Source of the DNA: Xanthobacteraceae bacterium
Lineage (GTDB): Bacteria; Pseudomonadota; Alphaproteobacteria; Rhizobiales; Xanthobacteraceae
NCBI GenBank assembly: GCA_022841625.1
Contig: JALHRD010000038.1
Span: forward strand, 1-40,877
Direction: 5' to 3'
Length of the DNA stretch: 40,877 bases
The notes under the pieces were generated by a model, which was not told the origin of the DNA, searched no databases, and worked only from the letters and a program-made list of their open reading frames with translations. Of this stretch, positions 3,346 through 33,597 are shown piece by piece (positions within the stretch are counted from its first letter, which is position 1; every line of letters starts with the position of its first letter). A program made the position numbers and the translations under genes.

Positions 3346-4259
3346 CAACGGTGCCCGTCAGCCCGGCTGAAAAACATACCGGCGGCCTTTCGTTCAGCAA
3401 ACCTGCCGACAATGTGCCGCGCGGCATCCTTTGGATGATCGCGGCAACGGTGCTGCTGGCGATCGCCGCCGCCATCGCGAAGTGGCAGGCGGAATTCTAT
3501 CCGATCGGCGAAGTCATGTTCATTCGATCGCTCGCGGGGCTGATCGTCTGCGCGGCCGTGGTGTTGCCGGTGACGGGATTTGCGGTATTCGCAACCGCGC
3601 GTCCGGGGGCCCATCTCGCACGCGGCCTGTCGCAGTCGATCTCGCAGACGCTCACGGTCATCGCTGTCAGCCTGATGCCCTTGGCCGGGGCCGTGGCGAT
3701 CAGCTTCTCGGCGCCGCTATGGGCTGCGCTGCTCTCGATTCTCTGGCTCAAGGAGCGTGCCGGGCCCGTGCGTTGGGCAGTGCTGCTGACCGGGTTCAGC
3801 GGTGTCATCATCGTGACCAATCCCGGGGTCGATGCGTTTCAGGTCGGTGCGCTGTTCGCGCTGGGCAATGCCATCATGTATGGCAGCGTCACCGTCGCCG
3901 TTCGCGGCATGACCGCAACCGAGTCCCCGGCCACGCTGTTGATGTGGCAGATGGTGACGATGGCCGTCTGTCACACGCCCTTGCTGCTGTTCGGATTTCG
4001 CTGGCCGAGTGTCGCGGACGCCGCGATGATGGCGTTTGGCGGCATCGCCAATGCCGGCGCACAATATGTTTGGACCAAGGCGCTGTTGATGGCGCCAACC
4101 AGCGCGGTGTCGCCGTTTTACTACCTGATGCTGGTCTGGGCGATGGTGATCGGCTTTGTCGTCTGGGGCGAAGAGCCGACTGTCGCGCTGATTGCCGGAT
4201 CCGCGATCGTGATTGCATCCGGCCTGTTTCTGCTCTGGCACGAAGCCAAACGGCGCTGA
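3342..4259 (+). CDS. EamA-family (DMT superfamily) membrane transporter
   Basis: A 305-residue protein starting MTTVPVSPAEK at an ATGA overlap with pxpC; the open frame extends upstream but that part runs inside pxpC. About ten hydrophobic helices are visible, arranged as two EamA repeats. The first ends near LWAALLSILWLKERAG and the second near WAMVIGFVVWGEEPTVALIAGSAIVIASGLFLL; the acidic ending of each repeat (LKER, WGEE) is typical. It is expected in the inner membrane as a small-molecule exporter or importer. Coupling to pxpBC suggests a substrate connected to 5-oxoproline or a related lactam, which is inference from context only. Confidence 0.85.
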   Translation: MTTVPVSPAEKHTGGLSFSKPADNVPRGILWMIAATVLLAIAAAIAKWQAEFYPIGEVMFIRSLAGLIVCAAVVLPVTGFAVFATARPGAHLARGLSQSISQTLTVIAVSLMPLAGAVAISFSAPLWAALLSILWLKERAGPVRWAVLLTGFSGVIIVTNPGVDAFQVGALFALGNAIMYGSVTVAVRGMTATESPATLLMWQMVTMAVCHTPLLLFGFRWPSVADAAMMAFGGIANAGAQYVWTKALLMAPTSAVSPFYYLMLVWAMVIGFVVWGEEPTVALIAGSAIVIASGLFLLWHEAKRR

Positions 4260-4269
4260 CGGCGCAGGC

Positions 4270-6969
4270 CTAGGCCGCGGCCGAAGCCTTTTTGAGTGGC
4301 GTGGCGAGCAGCGCGGCGACCTGATCGGCCGGCACCGCCGCCGAAAACAAATAGCCCTGAGCCTGATCGTAGCCCAGCGCCGCCAGGTAGTCGCACTGGT
4401 AGTCGGTTTCGACGCCCTCGGCCGTAGTGACGATTCCAAGTGCGTGGGCGATGCTGGCGACCGCCTGCACGATGACAACATGCTCGGTGCCTTTGCTGAG
4501 ATCCGATATGAAGCTGCGGTCGACCTTGATCTTGTCGAACGGGAAGTGTCGCAGATAGCTCAGCGATGAATAGCCCGTGCCGAAATCGTCCATGACGATG
4601 CGCACGCCAATATCTTTCAGTTTGCGCAAGTTCGTCAACGTGCGGTCGGTGTCCTCCAGAATGATCCGTTCGGTGATCTCGATCTCCAGGCGACCAGCCG
4701 CCAGACCGGTTTCCGACAGGATTCGCTGCACGATGTCCGGAAGGTTGGGCGCGATGATTTGAACCGGCGACAAATTAACGGCGATCTGGATGTGGCCCGG
4801 CCATTGGACCGCCTGTAGGCACGCCTCACGCAGCGCCCATTCCCCGACCGGGACGATCAAGCCGGAGTCCTCGGCGACCGGAATGAACACGGCCGGTGGG
4901 ATCGGGCCTTTCTGCGCATGGCGCCACCGCGCCAGGGCTTCAAAGCCGGTAATGACGCCATGCCGCAAGTCGATAAGCGGCTGATAGTGCAGTTCGAGCT
5001 GGTTGCGTTCGATCGCTTCGCGCAGGTTCATTTCAAGCTCGCGCCGATCATTGAGATCCGCGTTCATCGAGCGATTGTAGAATTTGTGGGCGCCGCGTCG
5101 TTCCGCCTTGACCGCGTAGAGCGCGAGATCGGCGGCCATCAGGAGTTCGTCGACATTGTCGCCGTCACGCGGCCCAATGGCGATACCGACGCTGACGCTT
5201 GAGCGGATCTGATAGCCGTCGATCTGGTAGGGTCGAACGACGGCGTCGACGATCGTCGTTGCCAGCGCTTCGATATCCGCGATCGATGTCAGCTTTGGCA
5301 CAACGATCGCGAATTCGTCGCCGCCAAGCCGGGCGAGAATATCCGATGCCGGCAGCAAGGAGGTCAGACGTTTGCCGACCTCCTGCAGAAGCATGTCGCC
5401 GACACGGTGTCCCAGCGTATCGTTGATGACCTTGAAGCGATCGATGTCGAGGAACATGATGGCAAAGGCAACGCTGTTGCTGTCGATCGACTGCAACCGA
5501 TGCAGCCGGCATAGCTCCTCGATCGTGGTGCGGAACACGCGCCGGTTTGGAAGTCCGGTCAGCGGGTCTTCGGAAGCGAGTTGCGCCACATGCGCCTCGG
5601 CCTCGCGGCGCTGCGTGATGTCGGTGAAGGTCTGCACGAAACTGCCGTCGGGCAATTGGCCGCGACGTATTTCGATGATGCTGCCATTTGGCATTGCGCG
5701 TTCGCCGATCGCCACATGCGGCGAGGATGACCGCTGCGACCCCTGAAGGTCGTCGCCTGTCGCGAATTGGGATGGCGTGCAGACGCCGCCCTGATACTCG
5801 ACCAGCCGGTCGTAGCGCGGGGGGTGTTCGATGAATTCTTGCGGCAAATCGAGCAGTTCGACGCATCGTGAGTTGATGACCGGAACCTCCAGGTCGCTGG
5901 TGACCAGCATGATACCCTGGCTCATATTCTCCAAAGTGAGTTGCAACTGCTCGGCTTTCTGACGCGCCTTAGCCTCGGTTGCCAGAATGCGCTCCAGCGC
6001 TCCGAGCACGATTAATGTCAGGAGCAGTCCCACCAGGGCATTAACCCGGAATTCCGACCGGGACTCGCGGAAGATATCGCCACGGTCCAAACTGACGCTG
6101 ACAAGCAGCGGGTGACCGCGAACCTGACGGAATGTCACAAGGCGGGTCCGGTCGGTGGCGGGATCCGTGTATTCGAAGGTCGCATTAGCGCTCGCTTGCG
6201 CTCGGCGAAACATTTCGGTTTCGCCGAGGTCCTGTCCCAACTCAAAGCCGCCGCTCGAGCCGCCGCTCGATCGAACCACACCGTCATCGCGCCCAATCAG
6301 GGCGATCGACGTTGCGGCGCCGAAGTCGATGCGATTGTAGAACGTGGTCAAATGCGCTGGGTTGAGCGAGGTCACGACGACGCCGGCAAATTTTCCATTG
6401 TTGTCCAGGAAACGCCGGGTCAATTGCACCGACCATTGCTGGCTCACCCGACCGATCATCGGTTTGCTGATGAACAGGCGATCTTCGGTGGTATTGAGAT
6501 GGGCGAGATAGTGCTCGCGGTCGCTGAGGTCAATTCTCAGCGCCGGTTGCGGGCCGGCATTCGACGCCTGCATGATCCCCTTGGCATCGATGATGGCGAC
6601 TTGAACGATAATTTCGCTGAGAAGGTCGGCCGTGTTGACGATGGTGTGGTAGTCGGCGCTGTCTTGCCGCGCCTCGACGGTGCGACGCAGATACATGAGC
6701 GACTTGTCGATTTCGCCGATCGAACGGAGGACGTTCTCCTCAAACACGATCGCAAAGTTTCGATTGATACGTTCCGCTTCGCGCTGATCGGCGCGCGTGT
6801 CCTGATGGTACTTCAGGCCGATGCCGCCCCAGATCATGGCGATGATCACAATGCCGAACACGCCCGTGCTCCGGCGTTCGGCAATGAGATTCGGAAGCTG
6901 TGCCAGGTGCAGTTTCATCGCGAGCGGTTCGTTTATGCGCGGGACCTTACGGGGTCGATTGTGCGGCAT
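4270..6969 (-). CDS. Membrane sensor with PAS, GGDEF and EAL domains
   Basis: An 899-residue cyclic-di-GMP enzyme. A short cytoplasmic lead is followed by a membrane helix near residues 36-53, a periplasmic Cache-like sensor (about 60-305, with the DSREHY-like segment IDLSDREHYLAH) and a second helix near 310-328. Then come a PAS domain opening LENMSQGIMLVTSDL (about 345-460), a GGDEF domain with DIDRFKVINDTLGH and an intact GGDEF at 549-553, and an EAL domain with EAL at 677-679, DDFGTGYSSL and KVDRSFI. Both catalytic motifs look complete, so either activity is possible. The inhibitory I-site RxxD before GGDEF reads PASD. The start at 6969 gives MPHNRPRK; M18 at 6918 is an alternative. It converges on the EamA gene with ten bases between stops. 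Confidence 0.95.
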   Translation of the reverse strand: MPHNRPRKVPRINEPLAMKLHLAQLPNLIAERRSTGVFGIVIIAMIWGGIGLKYHQDTRADQREAERINRNFAIVFEENVLRSIGEIDKSLMYLRRTVEARQDSADYHTIVNTADLLSEIIVQVAIIDAKGIMQASNAGPQPALRIDLSDREHYLAHLNTTEDRLFISKPMIGRVSQQWSVQLTRRFLDNNGKFAGVVVTSLNPAHLTTFYNRIDFGAATSIALIGRDDGVVRSSGGSSGGFELGQDLGETEMFRRAQASANATFEYTDPATDRTRLVTFRQVRGHPLLVSVSLDRGDIFRESRSEFRVNALVGLLLTLIVLGALERILATEAKARQKAEQLQLTLENMSQGIMLVTSDLEVPVINSRCVELLDLPQEFIEHPPRYDRLVEYQGGVCTPSQFATGDDLQGSQRSSSPHVAIGERAMPNGSIIEIRRGQLPDGSFVQTFTDITQRREAEAHVAQLASEDPLTGLPNRRVFRTTIEELCRLHRLQSIDSNSVAFAIMFLDIDRFKVINDTLGHRVGDMLLQEVGKRLTSLLPASDILARLGGDEFAIVVPKLTSIADIEALATTIVDAVVRPYQIDGYQIRSSVSVGIAIGPRDGDNVDELLMAADLALYAVKAERRGAHKFYNRSMNADLNDRRELEMNLREAIERNQLELHYQPLIDLRHGVITGFEALARWRHAQKGPIPPAVFIPVAEDSGLIVPVGEWALREACLQAVQWPGHIQIAVNLSPVQIIAPNLPDIVQRILSETGLAAGRLEIEITERIILEDTDRTLTNLRKLKDIGVRIVMDDFGTGYSSLSYLRHFPFDKIKVDRSFISDLSKGTEHVVIVQAVASIAHALGIVTTAEGVETDYQCDYLAALGYDQAQGYLFSAAVPADQVAALLATPLKKASAAA

Positions 6970-6997
6970 TCTCGCGGATCGATCTGAGTATCGCGTA

Positions 6998-7045
6998 AAT
7001 TTTGCAAGAACCTGCGCGGCTTAGCTAATTTTGCATTAAGCAAAA
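6998..7045. promoter_or_regulatory. Direct repeat AATTTTGCA and TTTTGC/GCAAAA palindrome
   Basis: The nine-base word AATTTTGCA occurs at 6998-7006 and again at 7027-7035. The second copy is part of the inverted repeat TTTTGC-ATTAA-GCAAAA at 7029-7045. The site lies 30-80 bases upstream of the GGDEF-EAL start at 6969 and in the shared divergent region with the hydroxylase operon. An operator or promoter element is inferred from position; the binding protein is unknown. Confidence 0.35.
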
Positions 7046-7209
7046 CCACATGCCGTGACTGGGTTTCAGCGCAATCGCGCCGTCAGGTCCGCATTGGAGG
7101 GAGCCTCTCCGGGGCGACGCAACCGGTCCGAGAACCCCGCGACCAGACAACCCGCGGCGTTGACCGCGTTGGCGGCGCGATGTTAGTTAAACAAAGCCAA
7201 ACGCGGCGC

Positions 7210-7239
7210 CGTTCACTTGGGTAGCGTTCACTTGGGTAG
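7210..7239. repeat. Perfect 15-base tandem repeat before the hydroxylase operon
   Basis: The unit CGTTCACTTGGGTAG occurs twice head to tail with no gap, at 7210-7224 and 7225-7239. It ends 13 bases before the ATG at 7253. It could be a double operator, an mRNA leader element or a recent slippage duplication. Confidence 0.6.
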
Positions 7240-7252
7240 ATTGTCGGGGTCC

Positions 7253-8110
7253 ATGAAGCTGCCGCCGTTGGAATATGCCTGTCCGACCAGCCTCTCCGAG
7301 GCGGTTGCGTTGCTTGCCGCCGGGGGCGGCGAGGCCCGCGCCCTCGCGGGCGGTCAGAGCTTGATGCCGATGCTGGCGTTTCGGGTCGTCGCGCCGGCCC
7401 TGTTGGTCGATCTGCGCAAGCTGCCGGAATTGCGTGAAATCGAGATTTCCGCCGATGGCGTGCGGCTTGGCGCCATGGTGCGGTGGCGCGATATCGAAGA
7501 CGATGAGCGTCTCACGGCGGCTCATCCGCTGCTGAAGGCGGCGGTGGCGCATGTCGCACATTATCAGATCCGCAACCGCGGGACCGTCGGCGGCAGCATC
7601 GCCCATGCCGACCCCGCCGCCGAGATGCCCGGCATCGCGGTCACCTGCGACGCTGAGATTGCCGCGACCGGCGCCGCCGGCCAGCGCACCATCCGGGCGG
7701 CCGATTTCTTTCTCAGTGCGCTGACGACGGCGCTTAAGCACGACGAGATCATCACCGAGATTCGGCTGCCGGCCTGGCCAGCCAAGCGCCGTTGGGGGTT
7801 TCGCGAGTTTGCCCGCCGCCGTGGCGATTTCGCGATGGCGGCGGCGGCGCTGTTCTACGATCAGGATGCGGCTGGCAAGGCCATTAACGCCCATGTCGGG
7901 ATGATTGGCGTCGGCGATCGTCCGTGCCGCCTGCCTGAGGTCGAGGCGCTGCTCAACGGCCGCACGATCGACGAAGCAACCATCGAACGCGCCGCCGAGA
8001 TCACCTCCGCGACGGTTGACGCGCAGGAAGATATTCACGCCAGTGCGGCCTATCGCCGCTCGCTCGCCGGCACTATGGTCGAGCGTGCGTTGCGAAGCGC
8101 TGCCGCATAG
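7253..8110 (+). CDS. Xanthine dehydrogenase family FAD-binding subunit (CoxM type)
   Basis: A 285-residue protein beginning MKLPPLEYACPTSLSEAVALLAAGG, the normal start of the medium subunit. The FAD-binding marks are present: ARALAGGQSLMPML (pyrophosphate loop) near residues 29-42 and the second loop IRNRGTVGGSIAHADPAAEMP near 106-126. It passes electrons from the 2Fe-2S subunit to FAD in a cytoplasmic heterotrimer. It is followed after 14 bases by the iron-sulfur subunit. An in-frame GTG/ATG further upstream is possible, but the family start and the tandem repeat upstream favour 7253. It is the first gene of a three-gene hydroxylase operon. Confidence 0.93.
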   Translation: MKLPPLEYACPTSLSEAVALLAAGGGEARALAGGQSLMPMLAFRVVAPALLVDLRKLPELREIEISADGVRLGAMVRWRDIEDDERLTAAHPLLKAAVAHVAHYQIRNRGTVGGSIAHADPAAEMPGIAVTCDAEIAATGAAGQRTIRAADFFLSALTTALKHDEIITEIRLPAWPAKRRWGFREFARRRGDFAMAAAALFYDQDAAGKAINAHVGMIGVGDRPCRLPEVEALLNGRTIDEATIERAAEITSATVDAQEDIHASAAYRRSLAGTMVERALRSAAA

Positions 8111-8124
8111 CCCGCGACACAACC

Positions 8125-8604
8125 ATGCCCACAAAATTCGAAGTTAATGGCAAGCCGGTCAGCGTCAATGTCGAGGCGCGCACAACGCTGGCCGATTGCC
8201 TGCGGCATCACCTGCGGCTCACCGGCACGCATGTCGGCTGCGAGCACGGCGTTTGCGGCGCCTGCACGGTCATTGTCGATGGCGATGCGGTCCGTTCGTG
8301 CCTGATGCTCGCCGCGCAAGCGGAGGGCAGCAAGGTGGTGACGGTCGAGGGGCTTTCCAATGACGAGGCGCTGACGCCGTTGCAGGCCTCGTTCCGCAGG
8401 CATCACGCGCTGCAATGCGGGTTCTGCACGCCCGGCATGATTACTACCGCCCATGCGCTGTTGAGCGAAGAGCCCGACTGCGATGCCGATCGGGTCCGGG
8501 AGGTGCTGTCCGGCAATCTTTGCCGCTGTACCGGCTATATCTCGATTGTCGAGGCGGTGCTGGACGCGCGCTCCGCGTACAAGAAGCCGAACGGCAACGC
8601 ATGA
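8125..8604 (+). CDS. 2Fe-2S subunit of molybdenum hydroxylase (CoxS type)
   Basis: A 159-residue protein with both iron-sulfur clusters intact. The plant-ferredoxin type cluster uses C39, C44, C47 and C59 (GCEHGVCGACTVIVDG). The C-terminal four-helix domain binds the second cluster with C98, C101, C133 and C135 (QCGFCTPGM and CRCTGY). It relays electrons from the molybdenum site of the large subunit to the flavin subunit. Its stop overlaps the next gene by four bases (ATGA at 8601), which couples synthesis of the large subunit. Confidence 0.96.
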   Translation: MPTKFEVNGKPVSVNVEARTTLADCLRHHLRLTGTHVGCEHGVCGACTVIVDGDAVRSCLMLAAQAEGSKVVTVEGLSNDEALTPLQASFRRHHALQCGFCTPGMITTAHALLSEEPDCDADRVREVLSGNLCRCTGYISIVEAVLDARSAYKKPNGNA

Positions 8605-10868
8605 AGAACGCTTTCATCGGCAGCGCCGTCGAGCGTCGGGAAGACCTTCGCTTCCTGCGCGGGCGTGGCGAATATGTCGATGACCTGCGGCCGGATGGGC
8701 TGCTTTACGCTGTCATCCTGCGCAGTTCCAAAGCCCATGGCCGGATCGTTTCAATCGATACGACAGCCGCTCTGAAGGTCCGCGGCGTCCATGCCGTCAT
8801 CACCGCCCAGGATATGCCCGGCGGACCGCCGATTGTGCCAATGCGGCTGCAACCGCTGCCGGAGTTCAAGCCGTTCGAGCAGCCGGTCATCGCTGACGGC
8901 AAAGTGCGCTATGTCGGCGAGCCGATGGCGGTGGTGATCGCCGACAGCGTCGCGATTGGCGAGGATGCGCTTGAGGCGATCGAGGTTGAAATCGACGCGC
9001 TGCCGGCGGTGGCCGATTGGCATGTTGCCCAAAGCGGCCAAAGCCTGTTGTTTGAGGCGCAGGGCAGCAACCGCTCGCTGACATTCTACGCGGTGCGGGG
9101 CGACGCCGATGCGGCGTTTGCGTCGGCGCCTTATGTCCGGCGTGAAACACTGCGCACCGGGCGGCACTATGGGCTCACCATGGAGCCGCGCGGCGTCATG
9201 GCGCAGTGGGATGCCGCCAAGGGTCGGCTGACGGTTTCCGGCGCCGCCAAGGTGCCGTTCTTTAATCGTCGGATTCTTGCCAAGCAGATCGGTCTGCCGG
9301 AAGACTCAATCGAGATGATCGAGAACGACGTCGGCGGCGGCTTTGGCGCGCGCGGCGAGTTCTACCCGGAAGATTTTCTGATTCCGTTTGCCGCACGCCA
9401 TCTCAACCGGCCGGTGAAATGGATCGAGGATCGCCGCGAGAATCTGATGGCGATGAACCATGCGCGCGAGGCTGAGGTCGATGTCGAGATTGCCTGTGAG
9501 CGCGATGGGACCATCCTGGCGCTACGCGGCCATATCCATACCGACATGGGCGCCTATATGCGCACCAATGGCGCAGTCGGCGCGCGCAATATCGCGCAGT
9601 TCATGGCCGGGCCGTATCGCGTTCCCAACGTCAAGCTCGACGTGTCGCTGTGGATGACCAACAAGACGCCGGTCGGCACCTATCGCGGTCCGGGCCGCTT
9701 CGAGACCGATTTCTTCCGCGAGCGCTTGATCGACATGGTTGCGCAGGATCTCGGGATCGACCGGGTCGCACTCCGCCGCAAAAACCTCATTGCGCGCACC
9801 GAAATGCCATATCCGATTGCGACCATCGCGCCGTATGAACACAAGGACGAATACGACAGCGGCGATTACCAGGAGACGCTCGATCGCTGCCTTGCGGAAA
9901 TCCATTGGAGCGAGAAGGCCAAGCTGCAGGGCCGGCGCATCGACGGCCGCTATCACGGCCTGGCGGTCGGCTGTTTTATCGAAGGCGGCGCGGCGGGTCC
10001 CAAGGAGACCGCGCGGCTTGCGATCAACGAAGACGGTTCGATCTCGGTCTATATCGGCTCATCGGCGGTTGGGCAGGGGGTCGAGACCGTGTTTGCGCAG
10101 ATTGCGGCCGATGCGTTGGAAATTCCGATGGATCGCATCCGCGGTGTCTTTCATGGTTCGACCGCCTATGTCAGCGACGGCTATGGCGCCTACCACTCGC
10201 GTTCCGTCGTCATGGGCGGCTCGGCGCTGCTGGACGCCGCGCTGAACTTCAAGGCGGCGCTTTGCGAAGCGGCCGCGCAGCGGCTGGGCTGCGCCGCCTC
10301 CGCGATCGTCGTGACCGAGGACAAAGTCAGCGCTCCCGGCGGAACGTCGCTGCCGCTGTCCGCCTTCGCCGGGCTGTCCAGGGAAGGCGCGTTCCTCAAC
10401 AAGAAGCATACCTATAGTTATGGCGCGCAGGCCGTGCATCTGGCGGTCGACGCCAAGATCGGCCAGGTCGAGATTCTCGATTATGTCGTGGTGGTCGATG
10501 CCGGGCGGATCATCAATCCGATGACCTTGCGTGGGCAGGTGATCGGCTCGCTGGTGCAGGGGCTCGGTGGGGCGTTCCTGGAGCATCTGGTCTATGACGA
10601 GCAGGGCCAGTTGCTGACCGGCTCGCTGGCCGATTATCTGCTCCCGACCGCCAGCGATTTTCCAAACCTGCGCGCATTCACCATGGACAGGCATCCCTCG
10701 CCGATCAATCCGTTGGGTGCGAAAGGCGCGGGCGAGGGCGGTCTGATCGGCGCCGGCGGCGTGATCGCCAATGCGGTCGCCAATGCGCTGCAATCGTTCA
10801 ATCCCGATCTGCGGGAACTGCCGCTGACGCCGTCGCGGGTGTGGGCGATGACCCAGCCGCGCGCATAG
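8601..10868 (+). CDS. Molybdopterin-binding large subunit of a CoxL/xanthine dehydrogenase family hydroxylase
   Basis: A 755-residue protein starting MKNAFIGSAVERREDLRFLRGRGEYVDD. Molybdenum-cofactor motifs are present: GGGFGARGEFYPED, TYRGPGR at residues 360-366, the GQGVETVFAQ loop and the C-terminal GAGEGG with the presumed active-site Glu at 712. True form I CO dehydrogenase carries AYxCSFR at the 360 region; this protein has the GxGR form found in form II and other aldehyde/N-heterocycle hydroxylases, so CO is an unlikely substrate. The partner subunits are the two genes upstream. The binding-protein genes just downstream suggest an imported carboxylate or heterocyclic compound as substrate. 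Confidence 0.94.
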   Translation: MKNAFIGSAVERREDLRFLRGRGEYVDDLRPDGLLYAVILRSSKAHGRIVSIDTTAALKVRGVHAVITAQDMPGGPPIVPMRLQPLPEFKPFEQPVIADGKVRYVGEPMAVVIADSVAIGEDALEAIEVEIDALPAVADWHVAQSGQSLLFEAQGSNRSLTFYAVRGDADAAFASAPYVRRETLRTGRHYGLTMEPRGVMAQWDAAKGRLTVSGAAKVPFFNRRILAKQIGLPEDSIEMIENDVGGGFGARGEFYPEDFLIPFAARHLNRPVKWIEDRRENLMAMNHAREAEVDVEIACERDGTILALRGHIHTDMGAYMRTNGAVGARNIAQFMAGPYRVPNVKLDVSLWMTNKTPVGTYRGPGRFETDFFRERLIDMVAQDLGIDRVALRRKNLIARTEMPYPIATIAPYEHKDEYDSGDYQETLDRCLAEIHWSEKAKLQGRRIDGRYHGLAVGCFIEGGAAGPKETARLAINEDGSISVYIGSSAVGQGVETVFAQIAADALEIPMDRIRGVFHGSTAYVSDGYGAYHSRSVVMGGSALLDAALNFKAALCEAAAQRLGCAASAIVVTEDKVSAPGGTSLPLSAFAGLSREGAFLNKKHTYSYGAQAVHLAVDAKIGQVEILDYVVVVDAGRIINPMTLRGQVIGSLVQGLGGAFLEHLVYDEQGQLLTGSLADYLLPTASDFPNLRAFTMDRHPSPINPLGAKGAGEGGLIGAGGVIANAVANALQSFNPDLRELPLTPSRVWAMTQPRA

Positions 10869-10984
10869 CGCCCGCCACGGCGCTTTCGGTCTAGATCCGC
10901 CATGCATCGCGTCGGGACGTTGACAACCCGCGAAGCCGCCATGACAGTCGGGCAAAAGCGACAACACCGTTTGGGAGCGTGTGG

Positions 10985-11977
10985 ATGAGAAATTTGCGAC
11001 TGACCCTGGCCTGCGGGCCTTATGACCGCACCCAGGCATTGCGCGATGGCACCATCAAGCCGGAGGGGATCGATCTCAATTACGTGACATTGCAGCCGGC
11101 CGAGATTTTCTGGCGGATGTTGCAATACAAGGAGTTCGATGCCTCCGAAATGTCGCTGTCGAACTACACCAGCCTGGTGAGCGGCGGCGCGTCGCCGTTC
11201 ATTGCGATCCCGGCATTTCCGTCACGCGTGTTTCGTCACGGCTATTTCTTCATCAACACCGATAAGGGCATCAAGGAGCCGAAGGACCTCAAGGGCAAGC
11301 GCGGCGGCGTACCGGAATATTCGATGACGGCCGCGGTCTATATGCGCGGCTTGCTGGAGCACGAATACGGCGTCAAGCCGAGCGACGTCGAATGGGTGCA
11401 AGGCCGCGCCGACCGGCTCGGCCGGGCGCTGCCGCCCGGCATCAAGCTGACGCAGGCGCCGGCCGGCGCCGAACTCGGCGATCTTCTGGAGCGCGGCGAG
11501 ATCGATTTCATGATGACGGCGAACAATCCGCTGTCGTTCCGGCGCGGCGCCGGCAAAGTCAAACGGCTGTTTCCGAATTATGCCGCGTTGGAAAAGGATT
11601 ACTACCGGCGCACCAAGATCTATCCGATCATGCACACGGTTGTTATCCGCCGCGACATTTACGACCGCGATCCGTGGGTCGCGCTCAGCCTTTACAAAGC
11701 GCTGTGCCGGGCGAAGGAGTATTCTTACCATCACATTCTGGAGACCGGCTCGCCCAAGGCTTCGCTCGCCTGGCTGCAGCCGCTGCTGGAGGAAGAACAG
11801 GAGATCATCGGGCGCGATTGGTTTCCCTATGGCATCGAGCAGAACCGCCCGTCGATCGACGCGCTCCTGCAATATGCGCACGAGCACGGGCTGACCGATC
11901 GCCGTATCAAGCTTGAGGAATTGTTCGCGCCCTCGACCATGCGCGATATTCCGCTCAGCGAAGGTCAGTTGATCTGA
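10985..11977 (+). CDS. 4,5-dihydroxyphthalate decarboxylase-like / NMT1-like substrate-binding protein
   Basis: A 330-residue protein, MRNLRLTLACGPYDRTQALRDGTIKPEGIDLNY onward, with GGGAG-type ribosome site GGGAG at 10973-10977. The opening (LACGxYDRTxALxDGxIxPEGIDL) is that of proteins annotated as 4,5-dihydroxyphthalate decarboxylase, which have a periplasmic-binding-protein fold. The middle has DLKGKRGGVPEYSMTAAVYMRGLLEHEYGV and the C-terminal third has NRPSIDALLQYAHEHGLTDR and LEELFAP, also typical. There is no signal peptide, which argues against a free periplasmic receptor and fits a cytoplasmic enzyme or a protein not exported by Sec. It follows the hydroxylase genes by 116 bases. A paralogue is at 25720. 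Confidence 0.85.
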   Translation: MRNLRLTLACGPYDRTQALRDGTIKPEGIDLNYVTLQPAEIFWRMLQYKEFDASEMSLSNYTSLVSGGASPFIAIPAFPSRVFRHGYFFINTDKGIKEPKDLKGKRGGVPEYSMTAAVYMRGLLEHEYGVKPSDVEWVQGRADRLGRALPPGIKLTQAPAGAELGDLLERGEIDFMMTANNPLSFRRGAGKVKRLFPNYAALEKDYYRRTKIYPIMHTVVIRRDIYDRDPWVALSLYKALCRAKEYSYHHILETGSPKASLAWLQPLLEEEQEIIGRDWFPYGIEQNRPSIDALLQYAHEHGLTDRRIKLEELFAPSTMRDIPLSEGQLI

Positions 11978-12004
11978 CGCGCGTACAACGGACGGAGACG
12001 TTCC

Positions 12005-12973
12005 ATGGCCATGCGGTCGGCTATCGCCGCGCTTTTTTTGGCAGTCTTCGCTTTGGTCCACGGCGTCGCCGCGCAGGAGACCTATCCCAGCCGGCCGCTC
12101 AAGCTGGTGGTGCCCTATTCCGCGGGCGGGGCATCGGATGTGATGGCGCGCTACATCGGACAGAAACTCGGCGAGCTGCTGGGCCGCAATGTCGTGATCG
12201 AGAATATGCCGGCAGCGGCGGGCACCGTCGCCTATACCACGGTCGCGCGTGCGCCGGCCGATGGCTATACGCTGGTCTATGGCACGTCTTCGATCGCGGT
12301 GAATGCCGTGCTGCGCGCGAAATCGCCCTACGATCCGATCCGCGATTTTGCGCCGATCTCTTCGCTATTGGTGGTGCAGAACGTCTTGGTGGTGCCGATG
12401 TCGTTACCGGTCCAGTCGGTGGCGGAACTGGTCGCCTTGGCCAAGGCGAAGCCCAATGCGCTCAATTATGTGTCGCTCGGGCCGGGCTCGTCGCCGCATC
12501 TCTCGATGGAACTGTTCCGTTCGGCGGCCGGCATTACTGTCCAACAGGTGCCCTACAAGCTCACCACCCAAGGCTATACCGATCTGATCGACGGTCGGGT
12601 GCAGCTTTGGCTGGCCTCGATGCCGAGCGCGCTGCCGTTCATCCAGTCCGGAAGACTGCGGGCATTGGCGGTGGCGGGACCGACGCGATCGGCGGCGCTG
12701 CCGGATGTTCCGACGCTGATCGAATCCGGTGTCGCGGCCGAGACCACGTTCTGGCACGGTCTGTTCGCGCCGGCCGGTCTCGCGCCGGAGATCGCTCACA
12801 GGCTCAACCGCGCGGTGCATGACATTGTCGCTCAGCCCGAAACCCGGGCCTGGTACTTCAAGCTCGGCGCCGAACTGGTGGCCGGCACGCCCGAACAGCT
12901 CGGCGCCGAGACGAGCCGGGAAATGCAAAAATGGCTCAAGATCGCCAAGGACATCGGCATCCAGAGCGATTGA
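12005..12973 (+). CDS. Tripartite tricarboxylate transporter (Bug/TctC) receptor
   Basis: A 322-residue periplasmic receptor. Residues 1-24 form a Sec signal peptide ending near GVAAQ, followed by the hallmark ETYPSRPLKLVVPYSAGGASDVMARYIG. Further family segments are NVVIENMPAAAGTVA, ADGYTLVYGT and the LPDVPTLIES run. GGAG at 11994-11997 sets the ATG at 12005. Such receptors bind dicarboxylates, aromatic acids or amides for a TctAB permease; none is encoded nearby. It probably shares a transcript with the hydroxylase genes upstream and ends six bases from the convergent cupin gene. Confidence 0.93.
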   Translation: MAMRSAIAALFLAVFALVHGVAAQETYPSRPLKLVVPYSAGGASDVMARYIGQKLGELLGRNVVIENMPAAAGTVAYTTVARAPADGYTLVYGTSSIAVNAVLRAKSPYDPIRDFAPISSLLVVQNVLVVPMSLPVQSVAELVALAKAKPNALNYVSLGPGSSPHLSMELFRSAAGITVQQVPYKLTTQGYTDLIDGRVQLWLASMPSALPFIQSGRLRALAVAGPTRSAALPDVPTLIESGVAAETTFWHGLFAPAGLAPEIAHRLNRAVHDIVAQPETRAWYFKLGAELVAGTPEQLGAETSREMQKWLKIAKDIGIQSD

Positions 12974-27186: not shown

Positions 27187-27268
27187 TAGAGAACTGCGAT
27201 GTCATAAACGCTTGCTGCCGCGGCGAAATGGGTCGATGCTTAGCACAATGTCCAAGCGGAGTGACCGC

Positions 27269-28237
27269 ATGACGAAATTGCACGCACGGCTGTTTGCCAT
27301 TGCCAGCTTCGTTTTGGTGCTGACCACTGCGGCTCCGGGGCAGGACTATCCCACCAAGCCGGTGCGGATCGTCGTCCCGTTCGCGCCGGGCGGCATCAAC
27401 GATGTGGTGGGCCGCATGCTCGCCGCCCATCTGACCGAGCGGTTCGGCCGGCAGGTCATTGTCGAGAACCGCACCGGCGCAGGCGGCGTCGTCGGCACCG
27501 AGCTGGTGGCAAATTCGCCCAAGGACGGCCACACCTTACTGATCGTTTCGATCGCTCATGCCGTCAACCCGTGGCTCTACCAACTGAACTACGATCCGTC
27601 CAAGTCGTTTGCGCCGGTCGCGCCGGTGCTGTCCAGCCAGAATGCCTTGGCGGTCAATTTGGAGCTGCCGGCCAAGTCGTTGAAGGAGTTTGTCGCGCTT
27701 GCAAATCAACAGCCGGGGAAAATCCAATATGCCTCCGGCGGCGTCGGCGGCTCGCTGCATCTGGCGATGGAACTGTTCAAGATCACCGCCGGGGTCGATC
27801 TCTTGCATGTGCCGTTCCGCGGCGCGGGCCCCGCGGTCATTGACGTGATCGGCGGCCACACCAAGGCGATCAACGCCACGATCTCGACGCTCGCGCCGCA
27901 TATTCGCGGCGGCAAGCTGCGCGCCATTGGCGTGAGCGGAACCCGGCGTAGCGCGGTGCTGCCCGAGGTTGCGACCATCGAGGAGGGCGGCGTGCCGGGC
28001 TATGACGCCGGCAATTGGATTGGGGTCGCGGCGCCGGCCGGTACGCCGGACGCCATTGTCGCGCGGTTGCACAAGGAAATATCGGCCATGCTCGATCAGC
28101 CGGAGGTGCAAAAGCAGATCGCCGCCGACGGTTCCGAGATCATGCGGATGTCGCCCGCCGCGTTTGCGACCTATATGGACAATGAAATGGCCAAATGGGG
28201 CCGGGTCGTCAAGCAGGCCGGGATCAAGGCGCAATAG
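27269..28237 (+). CDS. Tripartite tricarboxylate transporter (Bug/TctC) receptor
   Basis: A 322-residue receptor starting MTKLHARLFAIASFVLVLTTAAPGQDYPTKPVRIVVPFAPGGINDVVGRML; a GGAG seven bases upstream favours this ATG over the one at 27248. The signal peptide ends near PGQ. Family segments are VIVENRTGAGGVVGTELVA, DGHTLLIVS, YASGGVGGSLHLAMELFK and VLPEVATIEEGGVPGY. It is a solute-binding protein in the periplasm. No permease genes are nearby; it may serve the downstream amidohydrolase. Confidence 0.93.
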   Translation: MTKLHARLFAIASFVLVLTTAAPGQDYPTKPVRIVVPFAPGGINDVVGRMLAAHLTERFGRQVIVENRTGAGGVVGTELVANSPKDGHTLLIVSIAHAVNPWLYQLNYDPSKSFAPVAPVLSSQNALAVNLELPAKSLKEFVALANQQPGKIQYASGGVGGSLHLAMELFKITAGVDLLHVPFRGAGPAVIDVIGGHTKAINATISTLAPHIRGGKLRAIGVSGTRRSAVLPEVATIEEGGVPGYDAGNWIGVAAPAGTPDAIVARLHKEISAMLDQPEVQKQIAADGSEIMRMSPAAFATYMDNEMAKWGRVVKQAGIKAQ

Positions 28238-29452: not shown

Positions 29453-29512
29453 CGTTGGGATCGGCCGCGTGATCCGCGCTGGCGGTGAGATTCCGAGGAC
29501 GGAGTGCGCAAA

Positions 29513-29911
29513 ATGGATGAGCGCAAGGGCAGCTTGACCGGCATCTGGAATGGTCTCTACAGCTATTCCAGCGGGTTGTCGGTGACGTTTGTCGCGACCT
29601 TGATCGACAGCGGCCGCGCGTTGTCGGGCGCGACGCATGAGCCGAACGTTCTAGGCACGAGGCCTGGCGGCACGCTCTACGCCTTGCTGTCGGGTAGCCG
29701 GCAGGGTGGCGCGATCAGCTTCGTCAAAACCTATGACGAACCGGGGCCACGCTTCTACGCCCCGGTCAGCTATGAAGGCGCGCTCAACGGCGATGCGACT
29801 GAGATCGAGGGCCGTTGGCGGATCGGCGACGGGACGTCGGGCAAGTTCCTGATGATCCGCTCGGGCGATCAGGCCCTCGCGCTCGAGGCCAAGAAGCGCG
29901 CCAAGGTGTGA
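29513..29911 (+). CDS. Small beta-rich protein of unknown function
   Basis: A 132-residue protein starting MDERKGSLTGIWNGLYSYSSG; GGAG eight bases upstream favours ATG 29513 over the GTG at 29504. The composition is Gly/Ser-rich with alternating beta strands (LSVTFVATLIDSG, GGTLYALLSGSRQGGAISFVKTYD, YEGALNGDATEIEGRWRIG), as in a lipocalin-like barrel. No signal peptide. It follows the amidohydrolase by 60 bases and ends four bases from the convergent methyltransferase gene. Function not recognised. Confidence 0.7.
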   Translation: MDERKGSLTGIWNGLYSYSSGLSVTFVATLIDSGRALSGATHEPNVLGTRPGGTLYALLSGSRQGGAISFVKTYDEPGPRFYAPVSYEGALNGDATEIEGRWRIGDGTSGKFLMIRSGDQALALEAKKRAKV

Positions 29912-29915
29912 CCGC

Positions 29916-30734
29916 TTACTTCTTGGTCGCGCTCCACTTGCCGCCCGGTCCGCCTTTGATTTCGCCGCTCATGGCGTTGCCGTTGACCCGGCCGGCATAG
30001 GTCGCGCCGCCGGCGGTGAAGGAGATCGCTTCGCCGTTCAGGCTGCCTTCGATCGACGTGCTGTTGCCGCCGGTCGCAAGCGTGCCGGTGATTTTCTGGA
30101 AGTTCTGGTTGACGGTGAGCGTGCCTTGGCCGAGCTGCCAGGTGCCGCCGACTTTGGCCGGAACGTAGAATAGGTGGACGGTGCACCAGCTACCGCAGTC
30201 GCCCGTGGCCCGGTCGGTCTGGTCCGGGTTCCAGCCGGTGATGCTGAAGCCGTTAATGACAATGCGGGAGCTTGGCTTGAGATCGAGGAACTTCGGCATC
30301 AGTTTGTCGAGGTTCTCGGTCAGCAAGAACATCGCCATGACATTGGCCTTGGAGATGTCGGCGGCATACATGTCGCCTTGCACGAACTGCGCTTTGTCGG
30401 CGACGCCGGCTTCTTGCGCCATACGCCGCGACAGTTCCACCATGTCGTTGTTCCATTCGACGCCGACACCATATGCGCCGCGCTTGGCCGCGCCGATGAT
30501 GTTGCGGCCGTCACCCGAGCCGAGATCCATCACGAAATCCTGCGGCGTCACCTTCGCCATGTCGAGCATCTTCTCGACCGTGGCAAACGGTGTCGGCACC
30601 CAAACCACGTCCTTGCCGGATTGTCCGACCACCGGCTCGAACGGCTTCTTCTCCTGCGCTGGCAATGATGACGCGGCGACGAGTACAAGGCTAACGACCG
30701 CAAGCGACTGTAGAACGCGATGAAGGACTCTCAA
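29916..30734 (-). CDS. Exported SAM-dependent methyltransferase with beta-rich C-terminal domain (copy A)
   Basis: A 272-residue protein that probably starts with TTG 30734, GGGAG seven bases upstream; an in-frame TTG at 30752 is possible. Residues 1-27 form a signal peptide (LRVLHRVLQSLAVVSLVLVAASSLPAQ). The methyltransferase domain has VPTPFATVEKMLDMA, motif I DLGSGDG at 70-76, GVEWN and GFSITGW; these segments recall the FAM173/ATPSCKMT lysine methyltransferase group. A CGSWC pair follows. The last 80 residues are beta strands without a known family. A SAM enzyme with a signal peptide is odd, since SAM is not expected in the periplasm; a signal anchor is an alternative. Copy B is next to it. 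Confidence 0.82.
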   Translation of the reverse strand: MRVLHRVLQSLAVVSLVLVAASSLPAQEKKPFEPVVGQSGKDVVWVPTPFATVEKMLDMAKVTPQDFVMDLGSGDGRNIIGAAKRGAYGVGVEWNNDMVELSRRMAQEAGVADKAQFVQGDMYAADISKANVMAMFLLTENLDKLMPKFLDLKPSSRIVINGFSITGWNPDQTDRATGDCGSWCTVHLFYVPAKVGGTWQLGQGTLTVNQNFQKITGTLATGGNSTSIEGSLNGEAISFTAGGATYAGRVNGNAMSGEIKGGPGGKWSATKK

Positions 30735-30902
30735 GGGAAGTCTCCCGGACAAGGCTTGGTAAGGGAATGGCGGAATAACGGCGATCGGCTGCCGTTATCC
30801 CTTATTGCCGAAGCAATTTCCAGCCTCCAAGGAGGCCGATAACTGCTGGGATTTAGGGAAATATTACGCCGACCGGGGTGGCGCCGTAATACTTCCGCCG
30901 CG
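30735..30902. repeat. Short gap with inverted repeats between the two methyltransferase genes
   Basis: ATAACGGC at 30775-30782 pairs with GCCGTTAT at 30791-30798, and GCCTCC (30823-30828) pairs with GGAGGC (30831-30836). The gap of 168 bases is longer than others in this minus-strand set, so copy A may have its own promoter or be separated by a partial terminator. Confidence 0.35.
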
Positions 30903-31724
30903 TTACTTTCGGCTGGCCGACCAGCTTCCGCTGGCCTGGCCTTTCATCGCGCCGGTCATGCTGTTGCCGTCGACCCGGCCGGTATATTGCGTTTCACCGG
31001 CCGTAAAGGCGATCTCAGCACCGTTGAGCCTGCCATTGGCAATCGGCGTCGCTTTGCCGCCGATGGTCAGCGTACCGGTGAGCATCTGGAAGCTTTGCTT
31101 CAAAGTGAGATTGCCGTCGCCGAGCCGCCAGGTCCCTTCGACCGGCGCAGGTACGATGTAAAGGTGCGCAGTGCACCATGTGCCGCATTCGCCGGTCGCG
31201 CGCTCGGTTGAATCGGTCGTCCAGCCCGGGATGCCGAAGCCGTTGACGGTAATGCGCGAACCCGGCTGCATGGCGAGGAATTTCGGCGTTAGCTTGGCCA
31301 GTTGGTCGGGCAACATAAACAGCCCAAGGACCGAAGCCTTCGAGATGTCGGCGGCAAACATGTCGCCGCGCACGAACTTCGCTAGATGCGATACGCCGGC
31401 CTCGGCGGCCAGTTTATTCGACAAGTCGACAAGATCCTGGTTCCACTCCACGCCTAAGCCAGGCGCGCCACGCTTGGCCGCGACAATAATGGCCCGGCCG
31501 TCGCCTGAACCGAGGTCCATCACGAAGTCCTTCGGGGTCAACTTCGCCATGTCGTACATTTTTTCGAGTGTGGCGAATGGCGTCGGAACCCAAACCGAAT
31601 CCTTGCCCGGCATGCCGGGGACGGGTTCGAACGGCTTTTTCGATTCCTGGGCGGATGTGTTGTAGGCGAGTGCGACAATGCTCAACGCGATTGCGAACTC
31701 GGCAAAACGACGAACGCTGATCAA
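30903..31724 (-). CDS. Exported SAM-dependent methyltransferase with beta-rich C-terminal domain (copy B)
   Basis: A 273-residue paralogue of the protein at 29916. The TTG at 31724 has a perfect AAGGAGG six bases upstream, so this start is well supported although ATG-less; the open frame extends further but without reason. The signal peptide is LISVRRFAEFAIALSIVALAYNTSAQ. Motif I DLGSGDG falls at residues 70-76, the same position as in copy A. VPTPFATLEKMYDMAKL, GVEWNQDL, GFGIPGW and CGTWC are shared, and the C-terminal strands (GNLTLKQSFQMLTGTLTIGG, ITFTAGE-like AEIAFTAGETQYTGRVDGNSMTG) align throughout. More than half of aligned residues are identical by eye. It lies 61 bases after the hydrolase stop on the same strand. 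Confidence 0.83.
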   Translation of the reverse strand: MISVRRFAEFAIALSIVALAYNTSAQESKKPFEPVPGMPGKDSVWVPTPFATLEKMYDMAKLTPKDFVMDLGSGDGRAIIVAAKRGAPGLGVEWNQDLVDLSNKLAAEAGVSHLAKFVRGDMFAADISKASVLGLFMLPDQLAKLTPKFLAMQPGSRITVNGFGIPGWTTDSTERATGECGTWCTAHLYIVPAPVEGTWRLGDGNLTLKQSFQMLTGTLTIGGKATPIANGRLNGAEIAFTAGETQYTGRVDGNSMTGAMKGQASGSWSASRK

Positions 31725-31785: not shown

Positions 31786-32634
31786 TCAATATTTCTCCAG
31801 GAATTGCAGTAGCCTCGCGGGGGCGGTTTCTTCGGTCTGGCCGGCGACCGCCATGTCCCAATATTCGGCATTTGGCAGACATTCCTCAAGATACCGTGCG
31901 GCCGAGGTCGCGTGGGCGGCGTCGCGGCCGGGCACGATCAGGGCCGGTACCTCGGTGCGCATCAGGTCCTCGGGTTCCGCGCCGGGGGCGGTGTCGCGGT
32001 CGAACAAGGTCCGCGCCATGCCGGCGACGATCAGCCGGTACTGGTCGAGGTCGTGCTTGACATAGGCTTGGGCGAAGGCGCGGTCGTTGCGGAGTACCGC
32101 CGCCCAAGGTCCGCCGCGGGGGTCCTCGCCGAACGACTTGCCGGAACTTACCGCCAGCGCCGCCACGTCCGTCAGACTGTGCTCGTTCAGATAACCGAGA
32201 TGGATCGCGAAGCGTTGGTGGCTCGACAGCCGGTATTTTGCGCCGCCCACCGGCCAGTAAAGGATCAGGCTCAGCGCGCGATCCGGATGCATGGCTCCGA
32301 AGGCCGCGACCGGGCAGCAGCCCATGCAGCCACCCATGATATGCGCCCGGTGGATTTTAAGGTGGTTGAGCAGGCCGACGCCCTGCGCGACATAGTCAGC
32401 CCAGGTAATGCGTTCGACCCGTCCGCCCGACTGTCCGGTTTCGCGCCGGTCGAAGGTGATGCAGGTGTATTTTGTCGGCAAATGATCGAGCAGCTTGATC
32501 TTGGCGTAGACGCCCTGCGTGCGCCACTTGTCCAGCGTGGCGTCGAAGCCGGCCGGCGAATACATCAAGATCGGCGGTCCGGAGCCAGTCACCTCGTAGC
32601 GGGTGGCCAGCCCATCGATGATCGCTGTGGGCAT
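31786..32634 (-). CDS. Alpha/beta hydrolase with Cys nucleophile
   Basis: A 282-residue alpha/beta hydrolase starting MPTAIIDGLATRYEVTGSGPPILMYSPAGFDAT. The nucleophile elbow reads GGCMGC, so Cys103 replaces the usual Ser; this is the case in dienelactone hydrolase and a few others. The acid segment is VPGRDAAHATS, with Asp and His three residues apart, as in the Ser hydrolase at 17797. No conventional late His is seen. It starts two bases from the PanB-like gene stop, so the two are coupled. It probably cleaves an ester, lactone or C-C bond in the same pathway; the substrate is unknown. Confidence 0.88.
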   Translation of the reverse strand: MPTAIIDGLATRYEVTGSGPPILMYSPAGFDATLDKWRTQGVYAKIKLLDHLPTKYTCITFDRRETGQSGGRVERITWADYVAQGVGLLNHLKIHRAHIMGGCMGCCPVAAFGAMHPDRALSLILYWPVGGAKYRLSSHQRFAIHLGYLNEHSLTDVAALAVSSGKSFGEDPRGGPWAAVLRNDRAFAQAYVKHDLDQYRLIVAGMARTLFDRDTAPGAEPEDLMRTEVPALIVPGRDAAHATSAARYLEECLPNAEYWDMAVAGQTEETAPARLLQFLEKY

Positions 32635-32636
32635 TG

Positions 32637-33455
32637 TTAACCTTTGATTTGTCGGCCGGCACGTGCGTCGTCGATCAAGCTTTTGAAGGCGGCGAGCGAC
32701 GCCTGCGCGCCGTTGAAATAGGTGTCGGCCTTGGAATCGATCCAGCGCGCGGCATAACCGATGGCGGTGTGGGCGAGCCGCACGCGCCCGTCGAGCCAGG
32801 GGCCGCCGCCGAAACCGCCGATCACTGGAATTTTCACCGCCTTCACCACAGCGGCGCCGGCGACCGGCCCGGAATTGGTGAAGTCGAGCGCCACCGCGCC
32901 GGCGGCCTCGAGCAGTTTGGCTTCCTCGACCAGTTTGGCGGTCGCCGCGTCGGTTGCCATCGCGCTCGACGAGTTCTGCGAACTATAGGGGATGCCGTAT
33001 TTCAGGGCGGTCTGCGGCGTCAATCCGAACTGCGCAAACACCGGGATGCCGGCGCGGGTGAGGGCGGTGACCACCTCCGGAAAATCGGCGGCGGCATCGA
33101 CCTTGACCATGTCGGCGCCGCCTTCCTTGACGATCCGGATGGCGGCACGCAATGCGCTGTCGGTCCCTTCCTGCACCGGCCCGAACGGAATGTCGCAGCT
33201 CAGCAGCGTGCGCGACAGCGCGCGCCGCACCGCCTTGCAGCAGATCAGGATCTCGTCGACCGTCACTTCCAGCGGATTGGAATGGCCCCATAGATTGACG
33301 CCGACGGAATCGCCCACCGACACGAAATCGGCGCCGGCGCGCTCCGCAATCAGCGCGATCTGGTAGTCCCAGGCGACAAAACCGACGCTTTTTTTCCCGT
33401 CGCGTTTCATCTGTTGGAGCACGGGAATAGTGACCGGGGTGTCGCTGGGCGCCAT
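32637..33455 (-). CDS. Ketopantoate hydroxymethyltransferase (PanB)-like enzyme
   Basis: A 272-residue TIM-barrel protein starting MAPSDTPVTIPVLQQMKRDGKKSV, GAGGAAA before the ATG at 33455. PanB marks are GADFVSVGDSVG (metal Asp49), LSCDIPFG (Asp88), MVKVDAAA (Lys118) and GLTPQ. Where PanB has a catalytic His before GLTPQ (GHLGLTPQ), this has AQFGLTPQ, and where it has the catalytic Glu (LECVP) this has ALDFTNSGP with Asp191. It therefore belongs to the PanB/PEP-mutase/isocitrate lyase superfamily but may catalyse a different C-C reaction. It leads a minus-strand set with a Cys hydrolase and two exported methyltransferases. No panC lies nearby. Confidence 0.85.
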   Translation of the reverse strand: MAPSDTPVTIPVLQQMKRDGKKSVGFVAWDYQIALIAERAGADFVSVGDSVGVNLWGHSNPLEVTVDEILICCKAVRRALSRTLLSCDIPFGPVQEGTDSALRAAIRIVKEGGADMVKVDAAADFPEVVTALTRAGIPVFAQFGLTPQTALKYGIPYSSQNSSSAMATDAATAKLVEEAKLLEAAGAVALDFTNSGPVAGAAVVKAVKIPVIGGFGGGPWLDGRVRLAHTAIGYAARWIDSKADTYFNGAQASLAAFKSLIDDARAGRQIKG

Positions 33456-33597
33456 GATTTCCTCGTTGGATTGCGGGCGCATAAGAGCGGACGGCGCCGA
33501 TTGTGGCAAGGTGCGGGACACCCATTGGGCCGGCCTGCGGAGACGGTCAAGTCCGGCCCCAGGGCGGCCGTATTAGTAATTTCGCAAGCCTCGCCGC

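Follow-up and report, generated by a model that had tools for sequence, protein, structure and literature searches.

Putative exported methyltransferases of the aKMT/FAM173 fold and a recurrent LAT-type permease partner, analysed from a tandem locus of a Xanthobacteraceae bacterium

Results

The tandem genes and their surroundings

The window (the whole 40,877-nucleotide stretch analysed, contig JALHRD010000038.1 of a Xanthobacteraceae bacterium) carries on its minus strand a putative exported aKMT/FAM173-like methyltransferase gene, MT1 (29916..30734, 272 aa from TTG 30734), in tandem with its paralogue MT2 (30903..31724, 273 aa, TTG start with AGGAGG), the two products being 60-63% identical. 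The open reading frame of MT1 opens further upstream, at TTG 30752 (29916-30752, minus strand, 278 aa). TTG 30734 is the better supported and most likely start, since GGGAG lies 7 bases before it and an aligned TTG with an AGGAGG box is found in two congeners. The MT2 start, TTG 31724, is preceded by AGGAGG or GGGAGG, conserved in the same congeners. The combination of a TTG start and a good ribosome site, proposed in the initial annotation of this DNA, is thus kept in all six genes (the window pair and those of the two congeners), and the tandem, which had been expected to be conserved, is present in the window genome and in both congeners (G001 and G003). Both genes are confirmed as real.

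On the same strand lie an alpha/beta hydrolase gene (31786..32634, minus strand, 61 bp upstream of MT2) and a gene resembling ketopantoate hydroxymethyltransferase (PanB; 32637..33521, minus strand). The initial annotation had grouped the PanB-like and hydrolase (Cys-hydrolase) genes with the tandem in a possible system; we keep both as context and reject them as system parts, because in the loci fetched they adjoin the tandem in the two congeners only. As this adjacency is limited to congeners, the window tandem may have a lineage-specific metabolic role. Convergent with MT1 is a gene for a 135-aa protein (29504-29911, plus strand), conserved in the two congeners and having no match in Pfam or NCBIfam. 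Solute-binding proteins, which we take to be of the Bug/TctC type, occur near several methyltransferase copies (27212-28237, plus strand, in the window; also L010, L013 and L042) and make up one large neighbour cluster; their recurrence may reflect their abundance in these genomes.

The methyltransferase domain

SAM motif I, DLGSGDGR, was located by conservation among aligned rows at 30504..30527 in MT1 and 31494..31517 in MT2 (both minus strand); its first seven residues occupy positions 70-76 of both proteins, as originally read, when MT1 is counted from TTG 30734. The alignment (A1) comprised 66 rows, obtained from 79 distinct ORFs by leaving out two without motif I, ten short ones and L040. 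Motif I is kept in 66/66 rows, which were selected partly by this motif with exclusion of L040 (DFGCGDGR); every row likewise has an acidic residue following strand 2 and D/N following strand 3, and family conservation reaches past the SAM site to [NH]xFx[MI]xxWxx[DE]. A Rossmann-like fold, the glycine-rich motif I and the acidic residue after strand 2 place the proteins among the class I (seven-strand) SAM methyltransferases. The SAM site thus appears as intact as first described, with none of the loss of binding residues that had been named as a possible objection, and on its conserved residues we regard MT1 and MT2 as putative SAM-binding, methyl-transferring enzymes.

Pfam yielded generic methyltransferase matches only (PF13847 and PF13649 match 66/66 aligned members at E≤0.01); labels such as DOT1 and PrmA were rejected as weak matches to the shared fold. 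The best NCBIfam match is NF041081, the archaeal protein-lysine methyltransferase, at 89.1 and 68.9 bits, and since these scores lie under the cut-off of 200 bits, MT1 and MT2 are not filed as members of the aKMT equivalog. By sequence, the nearest solved structures are 5bxy (5e-31) and aKMT 5fa8/5jwj (about 1e-27 and 1e-26). An AlphaFold2 model of mature MT1 (pLDDT 95.5, pTM 0.90), used as a structure query, gave 5bxy and aKMT as its top matches (E 4e-18 to 3e-15), with TM scores of 0.89-0.91 over the chains of 5bxy (with SAH) and aKMT 5fa8/5fad (with SAM/SAH). Sequence and fold similarity to aKMT thus place MT1 and MT2 in the aKMT/FAM173 superfamily in the wide sense. The resemblance to FAM173/ATPSCKMT noted at the outset holds as kinship with aKMT, through which the accessible part of the review PMC9006661 leads to FAM173; the two proteins belong to a putatively exported branch of this lysine-methyltransferase fold, linked to FAM173 via aKMT.

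The likeness to aKMT of Sulfolobus islandicus (NF041081; 5fa8/5fad/5jwj) is confined to the methyltransferase domain (~40% identity in structural alignment, sequence match at E about 1e-27, TM 0.89 over the 5fa8/5fad chains). The aKMT chains have 161-172 residues and begin the domain at their first residues, whereas members of the window family have a signal sequence in addition, in most cases together with a C-terminal barrel and frequently with a cysteine pair. FAM173A/B (ANT-KMT and ATPSc-KMT), likened to our proteins via aKMT, are described in the part of PMC9006661 available as aKMT kin with an N-terminal hydrophobic segment; they differ in being mitochondrial and in keeping the anchor uncleaved.

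The cysteine pair and the C-terminal barrel

The pair common to both proteins, CGSWC in MT1 (30183..30197, minus strand) and CGTWC in MT2 (31173..31187, minus strand), had been pointed out before; it supplies the sole cysteines of each mature protein. Among 109 homologous domains (motif I present, at least 60 bits, at least 130 residues), the mature part has two cysteines in 56, none in 46 and other numbers in 7, and 54 of the 56 two-cysteine proteins show CxxC or CxxxC spacing. The proteins with the pair cluster in a single branch (SH-aLRT 99) that has 60 rows, 54 of them paired, and to which both window genes belong; L038:480-836 was excluded from alignment A3.

The unusual beta-rich C-terminal domain of about 80 residues, at first unrecognised, was modelled as an eight-stranded barrel over the last ~77 residues (29919..30149 in MT1, minus strand), also in isolation (pLDDT 90.7). 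Foldseek matched it to bile-acid-binding, avidin-type and FABP barrels (TM up to 0.77). As the best E value was 3.7e-3, we assign it to a fold class only, that of small avidin/FABP-like barrels, with no claim of kinship. Some relatives are without the barrel, e.g. a Leptolyngbya protein that stops before it.

N-termini and export

Sec-type signal sequences lie at 30657..30734 in MT1 (minus strand, cleavage site read by eye after LPA) and 31650..31724 in MT2 (minus strand, cleavage site read by eye after TSA). Across the family, we measured the hydrophobic peak as a 12-residue Kyte-Doolittle mean with cut-offs of 1.6 (loose) and 2.2, the latter quoted beside the former because 34% of shuffled N-termini pass 1.6. 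A peak of ≥2.2 is present in 85/109 distinct homologues, versus 6.6% of shuffled N-termini and 0/109 inner-domain control stretches; at ≥1.6 the counts are 104/109 and, for the inner-domain controls, 36/109. All methyltransferases with an adjacent permease (35/35, see below) pass 1.6, and the five homologues below it are three second domains of two-domain proteins together with L141 (G640) and L143 (G585), which have no signal. In the first set, 77/79 distinct ORFs show motif I and 76 of those 77 have a peak ≥1.6 before the domain; a positive flank precedes the peak in 70/77. Positive charge is higher in the N-flank than in the C-flank for 72/77 of this set and 90/109 of the larger one, and therefore the methyltransferase domain should face out.

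These hydrophobicity and flank-charge measures indicate a signal-like N-terminus kept in homologues, which bears out the clear signal sequences first noted in the two proteins; in most homologues the hydrophobic segment stands ahead of the domain, whereas starts lying after that segment would have spoken against export. A Leptolyngbya boryana relative carries a lipobox (..LISTGC). Overall, the N-termini, the mature cysteines (a spaced pair or none in 100/109) and the lipobox relative support the proposal that MT1 and MT2 are exported by Sec and would work outside the cytoplasmic membrane in vivo. A few relatives (L079-L081 and L140) look anchored. L079, L080 and L081 (G267, G139 and G364) have two methyltransferase domains in one anchored protein, and the next same-strand gene encodes a succinate-semialdehyde-type aldehyde dehydrogenase, identified by a family scan in L079 and by eye in L080.

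Copies and distribution

The window genome has ten copies of the methyltransferase at E<1e-30, all with an N-terminal hydrophobic segment. Besides the window pair, three cysteine-pair copies lie at 5726-12248 of locus L009 (G000:C35); the first two adjoin an isochorismatase-like gene, an arrangement also kept in two congeners. In 101 genomes (the window genome and its relatives), 16 have the methyltransferase at E≤1e-10, with 54 copies in total; for 18 of these, a further copy lies no more than 1 kb away on the same strand. Three of eight genomes of the genus carry 10, 10 and 8 copies, and at E≤1e-10 there was no match in the other five, which are 69-93% complete and split into 670-990 contigs; the expansion thus appears not to be general in the genus, unless fragmented assemblies hide copies. 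Wider samples contain the gene in at least 9/289 genomes of the class and at least 9/398 of the phylum. These counts are lower bounds, because 9 and 6 candidates, respectively, were scored per genome, recovering 9 and 6 of the window genome's ten. A set of 31 loci includes genomes labelled Betaproteobacteria, Acidobacteria, Vicinamibacteria, Deltaproteobacteria, Binatia and Planctomycetota.

A recurrent permease partner

The gene-neighbourhood survey of homologues that had been suggested revealed a recurrent partner absent from the window itself, a LAT-type permease. When neighbouring genes were clustered, 20 loci, some of which overlap, turned out to have an amino-acid permease next to the methyltransferase, on the same strand and in both orders. 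In 29 loci, many with short flanks, only the methyltransferase and the permease recur widely; no third conserved gene appeared among the 14 largest neighbour clusters, many loci having a 1.5 kb flank. Two large further clusters were dismissed as antisense to the two genes, judging from example positions. No SAM/SAH riboswitch was found at gathering score in 34 sources.

The permease matches TIGR00911 (E 7e-49) at 166-172 bits against a cut-off of 702, and on these scores it is kin to the LATs rather than a TIGR00911 member. Its profile matches BasC (E 2e-70), b0,+AT, xCT and LAT1, so that profile and sequence matches place this protein, encoded outside the window, in the LAT branch of the APC superfamily. 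Characterised LATs carry ordinary amino acids. The accessible text of PMC6472337 describes LATs as obligatory exchangers. What sets the permease clade apart is an acidic residue in TM6 (GGWN-E), the corresponding residue being N in BasC and Q in b0,+AT; following GGW/GGF/AGW-x, an acidic residue is present in all 44 homologues at ≥372 bits and in 0/22 at ≤284 bits. In a tree of 59 permeases (seven low-scoring ones excluded), all 33 adjacent ones, one of them beside a methyltransferase remnant, fall in a branch of 44 (SH-aLRT 100), which also holds 11 non-adjacent members, six of them a derived group. This group (L118-L123) keeps the acidic TM6 residue and has no methyltransferase neighbour.

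Within the 101 genomes (own included), the permease is present in 16/16 with the methyltransferase and in 2/85 of the others (Fisher p 1e-16, for genomes that are not independent and with methyltransferase absence defined by one query at E≤1e-10). Matches to the permease model fall into two score groups, 22 places between 603 and 718 bits and 9 between 208 and 257 bits, with none in the gap. For 19 of the 22, a methyltransferase is found on the same strand at a core-to-core distance of 64-201 bp, versus 0/9 of the lower-scoring ones; among the three others, that of G039:C82 is closely preceded by a barrel remnant (21 bits), and those of G053 and G021 have no remnant. Seen from the methyltransferases, 20/54 copies in these genomes have an adjacent permease. 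The window pair has none adjoining, and the clade permease is found nowhere in the window; the window genome encodes two elsewhere (contigs C2, at G000:C2:138178-139491, and C26), beside two of its eight other copies.

The model comprised 19 rows, all taken from loci chosen for their methyltransferases and covering 14 of the 22 places as well as all five new permeases of the class sample, and we counted held-out permeases separately. Above 540 bits, 16/20 held-out permeases are adjacent, one of the 16 beside a remnant: in the 101 genomes eight (five adjacent, one beside a remnant, two not), in the phylum sample one (G705, adjacent), in further genomes preselected for having the methyltransferase nine (seven adjacent), and on plasmids two, both adjacent. 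Among homologues below 500 bits, 1/30 distinct ones, from a planctomycete, is adjacent. Permeases above 540 bits have no methyltransferase neighbour in 4/36 cases, to which the derived group of six is added.

In the class sample, 6/6 permease genomes have the methyltransferase, and three methyltransferase genomes with no permease match carry the divergent two-domain form. In the phylum sample, 5/5 genomes with a permease above 600 bits have the methyltransferase; four methyltransferase genomes gave no permease match, of which two have no signal (L141 of G640 and L143 of G585), one is anchored and one has a signal. In G497 and G619, with an exported or anchored methyltransferase and no permease match, few candidates were scored, these searches having scored 5 (class) and 4 (phylum) candidates per genome. 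Among 28 further methyltransferase genomes (corresponding to 28 of the 31 loci), nine have a full clade permease, two have fragments with a clade-level score per residue and two have planctomycete forms (364 and 408 bits). The clade permease was not found in the remaining 15, mostly MAGs labelled Acidobacteria or Deltaproteobacteria. The permease is therefore not universal, and these 15 genomes must have another route for SAM, or our proposal (see below) is wrong for them.

Among 72,556 plasmid records, two contain the permease at E≤1e-100, Chelatococcus sp. CO-6 pCO-6 and Agrobacterium salinitolerans pDG3-1g; they are also the only records with a methyltransferase covering ≥80% of the query, and in both the two genes adjoin. 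Two Leptolyngbya boryana plasmid records match the methyltransferase; in one of these, a gene annotated as amino acid permease, with the clade TM6 and TRxGF signatures (567 bits), ends 17 bp before it. The fifth record matching the methyltransferase, from Gloeothece, has no permease within 4 kb. The pair recurs in Betaproteobacteria, a planctomycete, a cyanobacterium and on the two named plasmids. In L165, from a plasmid typed as conjugative, an IS3 transposase gene (2583-3814) with an ALIL frameshift element (2867-2983) lies just upstream of the pair.

Discussion

We propose that the family consists of Sec-exported methyltransferases of the aKMT/FAM173 type, served by an exchanger of the LAT clade that passes SAM out and SAH in, a reading that we hold with slightly better than even confidence. 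Sec would export MT1 and MT2, SAM-dependent methylation would take place outside the cytoplasmic membrane, and a LAT-type exchanger of this one clade would hand the donor across, SAM leaving and SAH returning. The barrel might serve in binding or positioning the target, and a disulfide between the paired cysteines might stabilise the fold. The likeliest substrates would be lysines of envelope or secreted proteins, a suggestion made because aKMT and FAM173 act on lysines (PMC9006661, in its accessible part). We infer the activity, the disulfide, the role of the barrel and the target. The window tandem would depend on the two permeases encoded on C2 and C26. An exported SAM enzyme needs SAM outside and removal of SAH, and therefore an obligatory exchanger handling amino-acid-like compounds is the natural supplier; the permease is our choice because it is tied to the exported enzyme by place and presence and goes unseen in the two signal-less genomes. 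That it exchanges SAM for SAH is suggested by this partnership and by its family. Counting against the proposal are the lack of a permease next to the window pair, the 15 of 28 further genomes in which no clade permease was found, the permeases with no methyltransferase neighbour, the methyltransferases of G497 and G619, the five congeners with no copy, the negative riboswitch result and the ordinary amino acids carried by characterised LATs.

Could the permease instead transport what an exported, active methyltransferase takes as substrate or releases as methylated product (an amino acid or a derivative), with SAM supplied otherwise? We consider this possible, if rather unlikely. It agrees with the description of LATs as amino-acid exchangers (PMC6472337, available text), and the 15 of 28 further genomes without a clade permease must in any case obtain SAM differently. 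However, the clade adjoins methyltransferases both with and without the barrel and the cysteine pair, and the window genome has two permease genes for ten methyltransferases; with such varied enzymes and so few permeases per copy, a shared cofactor fits better than a shared substrate.

A non-catalytic role, in which the methyltransferase fold would be a permease subunit outside the cytoplasm, either SAM-binding or ancillary, serving SAM uptake or sensing (compare the heavy chain of animal LATs), seems improbable to us. A two-gene module with no other widely conserved gene would suit it, and both parts could bind SAM, but conservation extends beyond the SAM site into [NH]xFx[MI]xxWxx[DE], and methyltransferase copies outnumber permease copies 54 to 22. 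There is still less to be said for ordinary cytoplasmic lysine methyltransferases held by an anchor that faces the cytoplasm. FAM173 would be the precedent, its hydrophobic segment being uncleaved and its target site on ANT facing the matrix according to the accessible part of PMC9006661, and the few anchored-looking relatives point the same way; against it stand the positive N-flank in 70/77, the lipobox in one relative and the scarcity of stray cysteines. We give least credit to the idea that the adjacency came about by chance, through shared ancestry or sampling, for although the genomes are related to one another and the model was built from methyltransferase-selected loci (its rows including 14/22 places and the five new ones), 16/20 held-out permeases are adjacent, in both gene orders, across Pseudomonadota of more than one class, a planctomycete, a cyanobacterium and two plasmids.

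To our knowledge, an exported methyltransferase combined with a donor transporter is an arrangement known only from compartments of complex cells, and no SAM-using process of the bacterial periplasm is known to us. In the literature, we found among the matches listed, which mostly leave subscription papers uncovered, neither a bacterial SAM methyltransferase that is exported and paired with an exchanger nor a periplasmic SAM process; PMC7775120, in the part available, deals with other methyltransferases. The closest parallels to the SAM-out/SAH-in exchanger proposed here are organellar. The mitochondrial SAM/SAH carrier SLC25A26 does the same proposed job, SAM moving one way and SAH the other (PMC9239748, accessible part), and plant Golgi SAM transporters supply SAM to methyltransferases of that compartment (PMC10349129, accessible part). 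SLC25A26 is an inner-membrane carrier of another family, whereas the permease described here belongs to the LAT branch of APC. From the LAT exchangers to which it is kin by profile (BasC, b0,+AT, xCT and LAT1), the clade differs as a distinct branch with the acidic TM6 residue, and it has an insertion around TRxGF that is missing in BasC, b0,+AT and xCT.

If the exchanger works as proposed, methylation would join glycosylation and disulfide formation among post-export modifications. A new transporter substrate would be assigned, and the presence of SAM in the periplasm and the identity of its supplier would become a testable question. We put at even chances the broader idea that several phyla run a second, extracytoplasmic SAM economy, in which a dedicated LAT-clade exchanger would work together with exported methyltransferases, grown to ten copies in the window genome, that modify envelope or secreted proteins once these have left the cytoplasm. 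This would be a bacterial counterpart of organellar methylation, in the form of a two-gene module found also on plasmids. The accessible part of PMC9006661 takes alphaproteobacterial aKMT homologues to suggest a bacterial origin of the FAM173 enzymes, and the exported alphaproteobacterial forms described here may bear on the bacterial origin of these mitochondrial enzymes.
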